Part shown: positions 25,544 through 55,477 of the stretch, in pieces
Layout: each line of letters opens with the position of its first letter
Position numbering within the stretch: position 1 is the stretch's first letter
Notes under the pieces: generated by a model
Told to the model about the DNA's origin: nothing
The model's database searches: none
The model's input: only the letters and a program-made list of their open reading frames with translations
Program-made: the position numbers and the translations under genes
Virus record (IMG/VR): IMGVR_UViG_3300047157_000174
Location: 32,095 to 96,094 of that record
Strand: one strand, 5' to 3'
DNA length: 64,000 nucleotides
Source: a virus

Positions 25544-28153
25544 CTAATCGTTAATTTTAGGTGGAAATTCTAAATTGGAATATTTATCCTCTTGAATATT
25601 CCAAACATCTACGTCATCTTCATCCTTCAACATATCTTGTTTTTTACCTGTCCAAACTATCCATGTTTTTTTCTCATTAAGAGGCACTACTCTAACGTGT
25701 ATTCTAGTGTCGAACTTATCTCCTTCTAATTTATATTCATGGTAGCCATCCTTTTGGACTCCTAGAATAACATTTCCCTTGTCTATAACTTTACCACCGT
25801 TTATTTTTTCTGCTACAATAGCAGGGTATTTATTCGATTTACCAAATAAATTATACACATCATCAGTATCTTCAATGTCTATTAACCAAGCAAACCGTTT
25901 TTTCTTATAATCAATTATAAAATTAAGATTGCCGTCTTCTTGTTTAGTTATTGTAAACTCGCCCGTTCTAGATTCTTCTTTATGAATAACCATATCATCT
26001 GTATCTTTTTCTAAAACTTCTTCGTTAGACATGAAAGTATTAGGGTGTTTGTAAATGAACGAATCTTGTTTTTTCATCCAATTCATTAATTTAGATTCGA
26101 GTGAATCAAAAAGACTTTGGTATAAATCCATATGATTTTTTCTAACAAATAGTAATATTTTATCAAACTCTAGAGCATCTTTACCACTATCTAATATTTC
26201 ATTACGAATTGATATTCTTAATTCGGAACGTTTACTTTTTATTAATTGATTTAATTCTTCTTTCCACAAATCAATATTATGCAGAGCATTTTTCTCCATT
26301 AAATTATCGCCCTCAAATCCATATAAAGTATAGCCTTCTAAATTTTCCTTTAATATTATTTCAGCAACACCGTGCGTATCATCTGTAATATAATATCCTT
26401 TCTTAAGTTTTTTAGGTTTTACTAAATCGGATTCCATACCACTCATAATTCTAAATGGCTTAGGAACTTTACCTGCAAGACCCTGTACTAAAGTGCTAAG
26501 AGATTTCTTACTTTTGCTTGCTAATTTTTCTAAAGTAGCAATATTATCAGATTGTGTTACTTCCGGTATTTCTATTACTTTAGCAGAATACAAACTGAAT
26601 CCGTTTTTCTTCTTAGTTACTTCATCAACTTTAACTCTAACAATAGAGCCTATGTCAACATTTATTTTTGTGTTGAGAGCCTTACCAACTTCTAAATATG
26701 CTTTATCTTCATAATCAACAGTAGAATAGTTTCTAGCAACTTCTGCTGTAACAGGGCCGATTCCCATAGTATAAGAATGTAGATTACTTTTTGTCTTTCT
26801 ATCGTTTAATACCACTACATCTAAATCAACAAATTTTTTCCACTTAATCCACTTTGGATTTTTTCTATTTCCTATGTAATATGTAGATTCAATGTCTTTG
26901 ATAACCACACCTTCTGACGCAGGTAGTTTCATAATATCTTGAGAATAGTTTTCAACTTCTTTCTTTGAATCTGCTATTCTAGTATCTTTCTTAGATGGGA
27001 ATGCTAGTTTTTCTGAGGAATGTTGAGCGTATTGATATAATAAAATATTAATTCTTTCTCTTAATGGAGTATCTGTAATATCTTTACCTTCGTGTAACAT
27101 AATATCAAAAACGTGAGCCTTCAATGTGCCTTCTGTTTTTTTGTGGAATACATGAGTGATAGTATCTGCTCGGTGTAACGGTTCATCTTCCATAAACAAC
27201 ATTAATTCTGCATCTAAAATACAATCTCCAAACTGTTTCTTTTCCATATGCTTAACTTGTTCTGAACATTTAGAAGTAATATCCTTTTGATTAAAGGAAT
27301 ATATTTTAACTTCATCATTGAACTTGTGTATTTGTATTCTCATACCATCGTATTTTTCTTGAACAACAAACTCTCCCGTTAACCCCTTAATGTCATCTAA
27401 ATCATCTATCTCGAAAATCCGATACATTGGTTTGTTAGGTTTAATAAAATCTATACCTGCTTTTTTTTCTTGTTCATCATCTGCCTTTGAAATGTCTAAT
27501 TCTAATAATGAATCCCATTGTTCTTCATTATATTTTTCTAGATATATTTTTTCTAATTGTTTAAATCCCTTTTTACATTTAGATTCTATTCTTCTGTTAT
27601 CAGAATCTTCATCACCATAATGTTCCAATATGTAAATAGGTACATCTTTAGGTTCTAAGTCTAACCCCATATATCCCTGCGTTATTTCATCGGGTTTCAT
27701 ACCATGTGCTTTCCAAGATTTTTCCGGTATAGTATTAGCATGAGACCTTACAGCATAATGAATAAATGCTAATAACATTGATTCATTTTTTAGAAACTCT
27801 TTGATTACATTATCTCCTAATTGTTTAGAAAAAGGGTCTGATATTTTATCTGATTTAAACCTAAGATTTTTTACTCCTTCATATATTTCCTTTGCCTGTC
27901 TTGAAGTAGGGTCATATGCCTCATCGGAAAAAGCAGTATCTTCTTTTAGATGTCTTTTCAATTCTCTAGTAAAATCTCCCAAAGAATCATATTGGTCTCT
28001 TACTTCTTTAACTGTTTTTTTCCATTTATTTCCATACTCGGAAGGATTCTCTTTTGCAGAAAGATATGAATATCTTACCCTTTCAAAAAAGTCTAGAACT
28101 CTTTTAGTTAAAGAACTCTTTTCCTTTTCAAATAAAAGTCCTGTTTGTGGCAT
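25544..28153 (-). CDS. ATP-dependent DNA ligase with long C-terminal extension
   Basis: 869 residues. The nucleotidyltransferase core is clear: EKYDGMRIQIH with nucleophile Lys267, LDAELML, HVFDIML, EGVVIKD and KWIKWKK. An N-terminal domain of about 250 residues fits the DNA-binding domain of archaeal/eukaryal ligase I, and an OB domain follows the core. Residues from about 570 on are extra. The last part (GEFTITKQEDGNLNFIIDY, later YKLEGDKFDTRIHVRVVPL and TWIVWTGKKQ) faintly recalls the phosphoesterase-type beta domain of LigD, but this is uncertain. It lies inside the head gene block, not in a replication block. Confidence 0.85.
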   Translation of the reverse strand: MPQTGLLFEKEKSSLTKRVLDFFERVRYSYLSAKENPSEYGNKWKKTVKEVRDQYDSLGDFTRELKRHLKEDTAFSDEAYDPTSRQAKEIYEGVKNLRFKSDKISDPFSKQLGDNVIKEFLKNESMLLAFIHYAVRSHANTIPEKSWKAHGMKPDEITQGYMGLDLEPKDVPIYILEHYGDEDSDNRRIESKCKKGFKQLEKIYLEKYNEEQWDSLLELDISKADDEQEKKAGIDFIKPNKPMYRIFEIDDLDDIKGLTGEFVVQEKYDGMRIQIHKFNDEVKIYSFNQKDITSKCSEQVKHMEKKQFGDCILDAELMLFMEDEPLHRADTITHVFHKKTEGTLKAHVFDIMLHEGKDITDTPLRERINILLYQYAQHSSEKLAFPSKKDTRIADSKKEVENYSQDIMKLPASEGVVIKDIESTYYIGNRKNPKWIKWKKFVDLDVVVLNDRKTKSNLHSYTMGIGPVTAEVARNYSTVDYEDKAYLEVGKALNTKINVDIGSIVRVKVDEVTKKKNGFSLYSAKVIEIPEVTQSDNIATLEKLASKSKKSLSTLVQGLAGKVPKPFRIMSGMESDLVKPKKLKKGYYITDDTHGVAEIILKENLEGYTLYGFEGDNLMEKNALHNIDLWKEELNQLIKSKRSELRISIRNEILDSGKDALEFDKILLFVRKNHMDLYQSLFDSLESKLMNWMKKQDSFIYKHPNTFMSNEEVLEKDTDDMVIHKEESRTGEFTITKQEDGNLNFIIDYKKKRFAWLIDIEDTDDVYNLFGKSNKYPAIVAEKINGGKVIDKGNVILGVQKDGYHEYKLEGDKFDTRIHVRVVPLNEKKTWIVWTGKKQDMLKDEDDVDVWNIQEDKYSNLEFPPKIND

Positions 28154-51934: not shown

Positions 51935-52366
51935 ATGGCTAAAATGGAAATAACAGAAATAAAAGAAAAAATTAACGCATATATAGAAACAGGAGCAAAC
52001 CCTTCATGGTTTGCTGATGCATGGGAGGCTAATTTGGCTAACCTTGAAAGTGAAGCAGTGAGTGAATCCCAATTCACAACAGCAGTTACAGGACTTTGCC
52101 GTTCTCTAACATCTGCAAACCCACTTATGCAAAGACGTAGGGCTTCATTAAGCACTGCAAGGCAAGAAAGAGTGAATGCTCACGCTCAATTCTTAATTGA
52201 CATTGAGACCGCATTCAATGCTATACCTGAAGGTGAAACTTTAGTATTAGCAAAAACTTCGAAGGTTCGACCTACCGGAGTGTATGTTGACGGAGCAGAT
52301 TTCGCATCTGTTTTCGCGACAAAAATCGAGAGTGCTGCTAAGGCACTTGACAAGGAGGACAATTAA
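51935..52366 (+). CDS. small helical protein, first rightward gene
   Basis: 143 residues from the ATG at 51935; upstream in-frame codons lie within the leader. Starts MAKMEITEIKEKINAYIETG and is Ala-rich and helical. Later segment GETLVLAKTSKVRPTGVYVD reads as a small beta part. Composition differs from its AT-rich neighbours, with more Ala codons, which suggests strong expression. It comes from the divergent promoter. Unknown function. Confidence 0.6.
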   Translation: MAKMEITEIKEKINAYIETGANPSWFADAWEANLANLESEAVSESQFTTAVTGLCRSLTSANPLMQRRRASLSTARQERVNAHAQFLIDIETAFNAIPEGETLVLAKTSKVRPTGVYVDGADFASVFATKIESAAKALDKEDN

Positions 52367-52456
52367 TTAGGTTGTCCTCCCCTTGACACACCTACTTTAA
52401 TTCTGAGTAAAATTAATACCTTTACTCAAAATTAGAGTACTAGGGTTGGGATGTAC

Positions 52457-52506
52457 AAAGTAATCCAACCATATGGTATGTTAAAATATACTAGTCAGAA
52501 TATAGG
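52457..52506 (+). promoter_or_regulatory. palindrome and TATA-like element ahead of the noncoding region
   Basis: ACAAAGT (52457-52463) and AACCATATGGTA (52469-52480) repeat the regulatory element of the small-gene promoters, followed by AATATACT and AATATAGG runs that could serve as TATA boxes. No protein gene follows for 1.5 kb on the plus strand. The element may therefore drive a noncoding transcript, or be an orphan copy. The second arm (ACTTTGT) is missing. Confidence 0.4.
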
Positions 52507-52639
52507 TACATCGGGTGTTGGTCTGCCCTTTATATATGAATCTGAGGGTATAGGGGTATATCATGGGAATCAAGGTCATTTGACCGAGAGTTCCTAATAC
52601 TACATATAATGACTCATCAGTAGTAGTTATAACATTTTA

Positions 52640-53000
<361 letters not shown>

Positions 53001-53059
53001 TCAAACATTGTCTCTCTCAAATGAGTGAGAAGTGCTTGAGAATTACATCATACTCACAC

Positions 53060-54000
53060 ATAAGGACTGTCCCGTAAATCTAGGACTTGAAACTACTTCG
53101 GTAGCAGAAGGTGTTAGTTGGCCTTGTGGGAACTAGGGGTTTTTACAGTAATAAGAACCGAACCCTATTCTTGAAAACAAATGCAAAAGAAACAACAGAG
53201 TAACCATCTAATGAACCTTAGCGGGGGATGCAGTTGGTAAAATAAGAATATAACAACATTTGTTGGATAGATGTGGGTTCAGAAGAAGATGCAGAAGTTT
53301 GCATTAGAGAACCTAAAACTAAACAGTTGAGATTCAATCAACAGAATAACAAGTAGCGAAAAATGCCTTCGGGAGTGAAGTAGTAAAAATTGTTCAAGAG
53401 CGAATTAATTCTTAGTCGGTTTATGGTAATCTAAAAAATGCTTTCTTAGGAAAAGGTATTTCCTGAGAACTAAGCGCAATAATGATGAAAGCAATTTTTT
53501 TAGTCATGGTCTTGCGAGACTATGCAGTTGTAAGTAATATTAGTAGTCGGCATGAGCAATAAAATATCATTGATAACACATGACTAACGTTATCATACCA
53601 CCTTCGTGTAAAGCGGCATAGTACGTTTTTTCTTTCCCCTTTCATACTCAAAATTTATCACTTTCGGGGCATACCCGACTTGGGGCATACTACTGTTTAG
53701 CCATAGTAGTATGTCCCTTCACACTCCATTGAGTTAGGTTTTAGATAATAATAAATTGGAAAATTCGTTCTCTGTTCGGTAACGTGTTGACATCTCCTAT
53801 CTAGTCGTGTGGTGCGACCCAATTTCCCTAACTATTCACACTCATATGATTCTTTTCTTACTACCACTGGGACTAGAACAAAAGAATCATTTATACGATA
53901 TGAGTAGAGTTTGCTAAAATAAAAAAGATACTTGAAGTTCCAAAGGGTTGTTCGCCTCATAATGCTTCGATAGCAATTGGTATCTTTCTCTACTATTCAC
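53060..54000 (+). ncRNA. candidate large structured noncoding RNA
   Basis: About 0.95 kb without a gene frame holds many perfect helices. Examples: CTAC-ttcg-GTAG (53093-53104); GGGTTC/GAACCT around ATGCA/TGCAT (53275-53314); GTTGA/TCAAC (53326-53342); TTCTTAGGAAA/TTTCCTGAGAA (53443-53469); CATGGTCT/AGACTATG (53505-53524); TGATAAC/GTTATCA (53571-53595); GGGGCATACTACT/AGTAGTATGTCCC (53682-53717); ATGATTCTTTT/AAAAGAATCAT (53846-53890); AGTAGAG...AAAGATAC/GTATCTTTCTCTACT (53903-53994). At least four helices contain G-U pairs only if the plus strand is the RNA, which fixes the strand. It could be a stand-alone RNA or the leader of the helicase gene. Confidence 0.6.
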
Positions 54001-54037
54001 ATTCCCAAATATAACAATAAAAAAAGAGGAAATAAAA

Positions 54038-55477
54038 ATGAAAATAAAAGGAACAAATGAACAAGAAGAAATATGGAAAGAAATGACTTACGGTGATTCT
54101 CACATGATGGTCTATGCAGGTGCAGGTACGGGTAAAACCTTTACAATTGTAAATGGTGCTGAACACGTTGTTGGTAGAAAATGCTTTTTAGCATTTAACA
54201 AAGCAATCGCAACAGAATTAGCAAACCAATTACCTGATGATTGTGAAGCAAAAACGTTTCACAGTTTAGGACTTGCAGCGATTAAATCAGAGAGAAGAAA
54301 CTGTAAAATTGATAATAAGAAAACATACAAGATTGTAGAAAACTTACTTGGTAAGAAATTTAAATCAAAGACACAATTGGTTAAACTAGTTAGTCTGATT
54401 AAATCATCAATGGTTGAATGGGATGATAGAGAATCAATTATCTCAATTATGCAAGAATACAATATCGAGTTCGATGGTGTATTAGAAATGAATAATGCTT
54501 TGAAGTACTTACCTACAATTAAGAATAATTGTATGGATTTATCAGTAGTTGACTTCGATGATATGATTTGGCTACCTGTCGAATTAGATATGAATGTCAA
54601 ACATTATGATGTAGTCTTTGTTGATGAAGCACAAGATTTCAATGAAGTCCAAAGACAATTAATTTTGAAGACTTGTAATGGTGGACGAATGATTGTAGTT
54701 GGAGACCCTAAACAAGCAATCTATGGATTCAGAGGTGCTGATTCAGCATCAATGAAATTATTCCAAGATACATTATCTGAATCTCCTAGAGGTGTAAAAG
54801 AGTTTACTCTTAGCATTACTTGGAGATGTCCTAAGACAGTAGTTGCAGAAGCAAATCGTTTCTTTAGTGATTACTCATGTAGAGAGGATGCAGAAGATGG
54901 TGAAGTAAATGTTAATGTAGCCTTTGACCCTAAAGTTGGTGATATGGTTTTATGTAGAACAAATGCTCCACTAATCCAAAACTGTTTCCAATTAATTTCA
55001 GAAGGAATACCTGCCTTTGTATTGGGTAGAGATATTGGTTACAGTCTGCAATTATTAGTTGGTAAGGTAACTAAGAATAACGATATGTTAGTATCTGATT
55101 TCTTACCATTACTTAACAAACATATCGAATACCAAATGGATGTATTTAGAAAAGCAGACAAAGAAAGATTAGTTCAATCTCTTGATGATAAGAGACAATG
55201 TATTACTTATCTAACTAGAAATGCAAATACCGTTCAAGGTATTCTCGATAACATCAAAGCAATCTTTGGTGATGGAAAGAAACGTGGTGTTATCTTTGCT
55301 ACTATTCACAAAGCAAAGGGATTAGAAAAAGATAACATTTGGATTTTAGAGCCTCAACTTATGCCTCATCCTATGGCTAAGTCTGATGCAGACAAACAAC
55401 AAGAGACTAACCTTTGTTATGTGGCAATCACAAGAGCAAAGAAGACTTTGAATTATGTAGGTGAAAGAATTGGTTAA
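54038..55477 (+). CDS. UvrD/Rep-like superfamily 1 helicase
   Basis: 479 residues with SF1 helicase motifs in order: Q/I region TNEQEEIW, motif I AGAGTGKTFT, II FVDEAQDFNE, III GDPKQAIYGFRGAD, IV ITWRCPK, and late V/VI IHKAKGLEKDNIWI and CYVAITRAKKTL. Shorter than cellular UvrD (about 720 aa) but with the full motif set. It should move along ssDNA and unwind duplexes during replication or repair. It is preceded by GAGGAAATAAAA, a ribosome site. It stands next to the proposed origin and RNA. Confidence 0.9.
   Translation: MKIKGTNEQEEIWKEMTYGDSHMMVYAGAGTGKTFTIVNGAEHVVGRKCFLAFNKAIATELANQLPDDCEAKTFHSLGLAAIKSERRNCKIDNKKTYKIVENLLGKKFKSKTQLVKLVSLIKSSMVEWDDRESIISIMQEYNIEFDGVLEMNNALKYLPTIKNNCMDLSVVDFDDMIWLPVELDMNVKHYDVVFVDEAQDFNEVQRQLILKTCNGGRMIVVGDPKQAIYGFRGADSASMKLFQDTLSESPRGVKEFTLSITWRCPKTVVAEANRFFSDYSCREDAEDGEVNVNVAFDPKVGDMVLCRTNAPLIQNCFQLISEGIPAFVLGRDIGYSLQLLVGKVTKNNDMLVSDFLPLLNKHIEYQMDVFRKADKERLVQSLDDKRQCITYLTRNANTVQGILDNIKAIFGDGKKRGVIFATIHKAKGLEKDNIWILEPQLMPHPMAKSDADKQQETNLCYVAITRAKKTLNYVGERIG

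Follow-up and report, generated by a model that had tools for sequence, protein, structure and literature searches.

A modular array of structured RNA domains ahead of a viral helicase gene

Within the 64,000-nucleotide stretch of viral DNA analyzed here (the window), we confirm a stretch of structured RNA on the plus strand at 53,053–54,004 that contains no gene. Rather than one homogeneous RNA of 0.95 kb, the region comprises several RNA domains in an array: a large lead RNA (~53,053–53,639), a hairpin (53,682–53,717), and two small modules of common design (53,733–53,843 and 53,904–54,004). Changes seen across related viruses show that selection maintains base pairing on the plus strand in the helices of both the lead RNA and the modules, and comparison of close relatives demonstrates that modules have been gained, lost or shuffled. 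An initial annotation of this DNA had noted, at 53,060–54,000, at least nine helices and described a gene-free structured RNA, which is borne out by compensatory changes and by the lack of any ORF longer than 43 aa wholly within the stretch. Its picture of a single large RNA of ~0.95 kb holds for the structured RNA itself but gives way to a modular array that runs to 54004.

Pairing and folding strand

The evidence for structure comes from covariation and not from folding energy. Comparison of folding energy with shuffled sequence, one of the checks proposed in the initial annotation, gives a weak result: the minimum free energy (MFE) of the 991-nt region has a z-score of -1.72 on the plus strand, where 2 of 20 shuffles fold equally well, and of -1.16 on the minus strand, where 3 of 20 are equally good. 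Coding controls reach z-scores as low as those of the array, and MFE z-scores, for the whole region and for its segments, were thus dropped as evidence of structure because they do not discriminate. By itself, folding energy gives no convincing sign of structure in the array.

The second check, for covarying pairs in relatives, is passed clearly. In a set of five close relatives covering five helices and 40 pairs, 11 pairs are changed on both sides, compared with a mean of 3.2 in shuffled alignments (0/500 reach the observed count) and 1–2 when the helices are slid; 96.5% of the cells are paired, versus 34–51% when slid. For the module stems, an alignment fitted to the covariance model has 97.7% of cells paired and two-sided changes in 8 of 12 pairs, a count reached by 2/500 shuffles, and the covariation score of this fitted alignment exceeds all 500 shuffles. 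An unfitted alignment of five module sequences gives 8 two-sided pairs out of 13 (0/500). The initial annotation had also argued for the plus strand from G-U pairs, and we agree: because the five helices hold 15 G-U cells and 0 A-C cells, the plus strand is the folding strand, while the fitted small-module alignment, with three of each, is strand-neutral by itself.

Because MAFFT misaligns the stems of distant relatives, the analysis relied on covariance models and on alignments of close relatives, and in the distant relatives the arms of helix Px and those of the 5' domain were matched by hand. A sequence descriptor with 5-bp stems was rejected as too loose when compared to shuffles. The covariance model built from five modules matches, at E ≤1 in 241 kb, only array modules, and it recovers three modules on which it was not trained (two in contig L010 and one in L106). 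A model of the lead-RNA core, built only from near relatives of the window, finds L007 at 7e-6 and next ranks L086, L009, L008, and L106 at exactly the expected site (E 0.06–0.43, individually weak); it ranks no homologous site in helicase relatives that lack the RNA. Helix Px (53571–53577/53589–53595) retains its pairing with different bases in ten viruses, with 64 of 65 pairs kept. The permutation result for this helix (0/20,000) is supportive only, as its arms were hand-picked, and a helix of this length is by itself unremarkable in single sequences. Between L008 and L009, which form a close pair, a C-G pair of Px is replaced by U-A, and the hairpin tips differ in length.

Anatomy of the lead RNA and the small modules

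The boundaries of the lead RNA (53053–53639) are placed at the outermost conserved pairings. Its 5' domain (53053–53130) is closed by the helix CUCACA..AGG / CCU..UGUGGG (CUCACA..CCUUGUGGG), which is kept with other bases in L005 and L106 when read by hand, and holds the CUAC-UUCG-GUAG hairpin at 53093–53104. The 5' arm of the core (53136–53157) consists of GGGG, a bulge made of a U-run and AAUAA, and AAGAA, and its partner at 53630–53639 reads UUCUU-U-CCCC, such that the GGGG/CCCC core stem is followed, on the 5' side, by the bulge and then by the inner stem AAGAA/UUCUU. Equivalents of this stem are found in L106 (GAGG/CCUC with AAAGCA/UGCUUU) and in L007 (AAAGG/CCUUU).

A variable subdomain (53160–53280) has GAACCC/GGGUUC arms around a C-UUAGC-G hairpin at 53216–53224. 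The stem annotated at 53275–53314 stands in part: its inner hairpin AUGCA/UGCAU (53289–53304) is kept in relatives, with the version AUAAA/UUUAU in L005, but the outer part is not conserved as drawn. Its GGGTTC more likely pairs with the GAACCC at 53160–53165, a pairing that, as read from alignments, is replaced by other complementary arms in L003 and L011 (GAGT/ACTC) and in L005 (GAATGGAA/TTCCATTC). Further along lie an 11-bp hairpin (53443–53469), in which six pairs are changed on both sides among five viruses, and an 8-bp hairpin (53505–53524), in which three pairs are changed on both sides in relatives. These two stems, together with the UUCG hairpin and the hairpin at 53682–53717, are present in the sequence as initially annotated. 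The conserved 3' core (53542–53625) contains AGUAGUCG, (A/G)UAAAA, helix Px, and GGCAUAG(U/C)ACG. Across the lead RNA, the blocks GCGCUAUAA, AGUAGUCG, (A/G)UAAAA, and GGCAUAG(U/C)AC are near-constant while the helices around them vary.

Downstream of the lead RNA, module B is a 13-bp hairpin (53682–53717), in place of which L003 and L011 have a different hairpin. The small modules that follow share one architecture with differing stem sequences: an outer stem, a one-sided bulge of 14–16 nt that begins with UUU(U) and ends in an A-rich, AAUAA-like sequence, an inner stem, a variable apex, and a 3' tail, UUCACA(C/U)UC, i.e., UAUUCACA(C/U)UC. Module C (53733–53843) has the outer stem GUUAGG/CCUAAC, the bulge UUUUAGAUAAUAAU, the inner stem AAAUUGG/CCAAUUU, and the tail UAUUCACACUC, while module D (53904–54004) has the outer stem GUAGAG/CUCUAC, the bulge UUUGCUAAAAUAAA, the inner stem AAAGAUAC/GUAUCUUU, and the tail UAUUCACAUUC. 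They are joined by a linker hairpin (53842–53903; ACUCAUAU..AUAUGAGU), whose helix extends a few bases into each of the two modules. The ACUC of the tail pairs with a GAGU ahead of the next module, fully so at 11 of 12 junctions, the twelfth (in L008) having been entered out of register.

The number of modules varies among relatives. Two clear small modules of this design are present in L010 and three in L106. In L002, L003, L004, and L011, module D is absent at this position and C joins the helicase leader directly; in L004 and L011, a linker hairpin like the one that precedes D stands before C. The modules thus act as cassettes, with the tail sequence as their boundary.

Distribution and genomic setting

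Relatives were retrieved as viral contigs via the helicase encoded downstream of the array. Besides the record that contains the window, 12 contigs bear the RNA (L002–L011, L086, and L106), with only its 3' part in L002, L004, and L006. The helicase relatives L012–L023 (46–51% identity) have no match to the lead-RNA core. Scans of 2.9 million viral contigs with exact patterns of this core return these RNA-bearing contigs only, and the arrays of the window, L008, and L106 have no match by DNA similarity among 50,697 phage records. The array represents a new RNA family, apparently limited to one virus clade. An upstream 161-aa gene, tried as a handle for further relatives, gave no useful relative. 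A scan of bacterial and archaeal genomes with the helicase yields three matches, the best of which is 49% identical; the contig L123 (NZTP01000027.1), assigned to an Altibacter (bacterial) MAG, has a helicase with 49% identity and is probably a misbinned virus. The relative L020, which lacks the lead RNA, has ahead of its helicase a hairpin GAGAGAGGG/CCCTCTCTC and, after it, TTCATATTCAC (L020:5780–5870); this may be a distant module.

The initial annotation had placed the DNA in an archaeal virus, and the gene content accords with this. The major capsid protein has 11 matches in the phage collection, for which all 11 named hosts are archaea (haloarchaea or methanogens), and a TFIIB zinc ribbon, an RFC-like ATPase, a split family B polymerase, and ATP-dependent ligases agree with such an assignment. 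By these genes, we identify the source as a tailed virus of archaea. For the host, we can offer only a guess, marine Poseidoniales, which are hosts of magroviruses (PMC10160649). The family B DNA polymerase is encoded in two genes (L138:10794–12494 and L138:13197–14123, record G000) with small ORFs between them, and an intron was rejected since the gap contains these ORFs. The structural gene block includes a gene (window 25544–28153, minus strand) for a protein of 869 aa that contains an ATP-dependent DNA ligase domain, and a full ligase is encoded in addition at L138:2758–4302.

Left of the array, positions 52768–52970 form an origin-like element, in which TTTCTCA/TGAGAAA repeats stand on both sides of an A+T-rich core; it includes a (CT)n tract (52898–52935) and a direct repeat (52815–52843/52942–52970). 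Two gene blocks diverge at this element. Computed over the 96-kb record in 1-kb bins, cumulative GC skew has its maximum at ~22 kb of the record and its minimum at ~51.0 kb of the window, within about 2 kb of the element and the divergence. These features suggest that the element is a replication origin, with the caveat that skew also follows gene direction. The layout recurs with other repeats at L020:4253–4512, L018:3860–4060, and L007:3640–3850; the flanking repeats are lineage-specific (TGAGAAA, TGAGACGAG, GTAGAAA), and the microsatellite unit differs by lineage as well (CT, ACT, CATT, ATCT). Further left are a site, ACAAAGTNNNNNNACCATATGGT (52455–52477), that contains the palindrome ACCATATGGT and is conserved both in RNA-bearing and in RNA-less relatives (L007, L008, L086, L106, L012, L018, L020), and a TATA-box-like sequence, CTTTATATATG (52528–52538), that is kept in L003, L011, and L005 and is a candidate archaeal promoter. 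Directly downstream of the array is the gene of a UvrD/Rep-type superfamily 1 helicase (54038–55477, plus strand). In L086 alone, a gene of 302 aa that has a TATA-like box of its own (L086:3855–4763) stands between the array and the helicase gene, and because another gene follows the array there, the array is not tied to the helicase.

Possible functions and comparison with known RNAs

The reading we favor, to which we give about an even chance, is a multi-unit RNA scaffold or stability array within an early leader. The leader would be transcribed at the start of the rightward replication-gene block, next to the probable origin, and would fold as independent domains: one large RNA with unpaired, conserved core motifs, and then small modules set apart by short linker hairpins and by the tail UAUUCAC-ACUC, which is conserved and single-stranded. 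In each module, the one-sided bulge, with its U-run and A-run, may dock through U.A-U triples on the inner stem at its A-U base, so that a single protein, viral or host, would meet an identical surface on every module. Both the U-run and an A-U (AAA/UUU) inner-stem base occur in most modules, the base being missing in those of L007, L008, L010_0, and L086. The array RNA could be released by processing at the tails or retained on the early transcript, and repeated modules would provide more binding sites, whose number would be tuned by gain and loss. Three observations lead us to prefer this reading: one core recurs in modules whose stems differ, unpaired motifs are kept in the lead RNA, and in L086 the array is followed by a different gene. 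A related but rather unlikely proposal is that the lead RNA, in view of its near-constant blocks, is catalytic or ligand-binding and the small modules are exchangeable cassettes excised at the UAUUCAC tails; if true, this would be a modular RNA system of archaeal viruses without a known counterpart.

Two less likely readings exclude neither each other nor a scaffold. The array may be a cis-acting 5' leader of the helicase or early operon that regulates only the downstream genes, at the level of translation, transcript stability, or elongation, a possibility that we rate clearly below the scaffold. Only 33 nt separate the end of the array from the helicase ATG, leaving no room for another promoter; this gap holds a Shine-Dalgarno-like GAGGAAAU and neither a promoter nor a T-run, and gene order is the same in RNA-bearing relatives with the exception of L086. 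However, the gene after the array is not constant, as the L086 array precedes the 302-aa gene with a TATAAATA box between them, and relatives with 46–51% identical helicases have no array. The A+U-rich Shine-Dalgarno stretch is also not seen paired into a conserved helix of the array, and the array, at ~1 kb and with an unpaired core that is conserved, is larger than a simple leader would call for.

The second reading, which we consider improbable, is that a transcript from the origin-like element serves as a primer or R-loop whose folding controls initiation, as for ColE1 RNA II. It is consistent with the position of the array directly right of the element in every RNA-bearing virus read, with the divergent gene blocks and nearby skew minimum, and with the superfamily 1 helicase that comes next, but the origin is itself putative given that skew tracks gene direction. 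Furthermore, the RNA-less relatives read from among L012–L023 keep the origin-like element, and the RNA is hence not required at the element in these sister viruses. DNA-level hairpins, such as cruciforms or recombination or packaging sites, are already disfavored and very improbable: the array does contain inverted repeats and adjoins a probable origin, and TTCACACTC boundaries seem to be sites of recombination between modules, but G-U pairs far outnumber A-C mismatches, and the large one-sided bulges, long-range pairings, and strand-specific conserved unpaired motifs all argue against a role as DNA.

When compared to known RNA families, the array has no match in Rfam at the gathering score. 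Even at E ≤10, a search of 52300–54100 that included GOLLD, ROOL, and OLE returns none of these three, in keeping with the initial annotation, which could not match the RNA to GOLLD or ROOL; it returns only chance-level miRNA and snoRNA matches, nearly all at the (CT)n tract, which is not part of the array. On the loci of relatives, Rfam finds nothing except three tRNA genes in the RNA-less L012 (9434–9677), and no tRNA is present in the window, in bases 1–32200 of the record, or in the RNA-bearing loci of relatives that were tested. Group I and group II introns, RNase P, tmRNA, and SRP RNA were ruled out by the lack of Rfam or ARAGORN matches, and the location of the array outside any gene also counts against an intron. 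An integron attC site, a BHB tRNA-intron, and a group I core were dropped by reasoning, as the motifs do not fit. A limited literature search finds no description of a large ornate RNA from an archaeal virus, nor of this RNA.

Several likenesses to known systems can nevertheless be drawn. Structured RNAs transcribed beside an origin are exemplified by ColE1 RNA II, to which the array is similar in its position by a probable origin, with no sequence relation seen. ENE/triple-helix stability elements of the MALAT1 and PAN type have a U-run opposite an A-U stem beside an asymmetric internal loop, an arrangement that the array modules resemble, although in the modules the 5' side carries both the U-run and the A-run, several modules have no A-U base, and the triples are putative. 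GOLLD and ROOL RNAs, which form homo-oligomeric RNA cages and are often, but not obligatorily, found beside tRNA islands, come closest in character. Like these RNAs and OLE, the array is a long, covarying noncoding RNA with unknown function, and like GOLLD and ROOL it belongs to a tailed virus; it differs from all three in lacking a covariance-model match even at E 10 and in not being near tRNAs. In GOLLD, the 3' region is conserved and the 5' region less so, and other large viral noncoding RNAs likewise have unknown function (PMC12286853). The lead RNA similarly has a conserved 3' and a less conserved 5' region. Large ornate RNAs were previously known from bacteria and their phages, whereas the setting here is an archaeal virus, and the location by a probable origin and replication genes makes the array testable as a replication or takeover RNA. 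Unlike GOLLD and ROOL, the array adds small modules of one design to its large RNA, and this organization, in which tandem modules that have one core in common and differ in their stems are shuffled between relatives, is one not described for those families.
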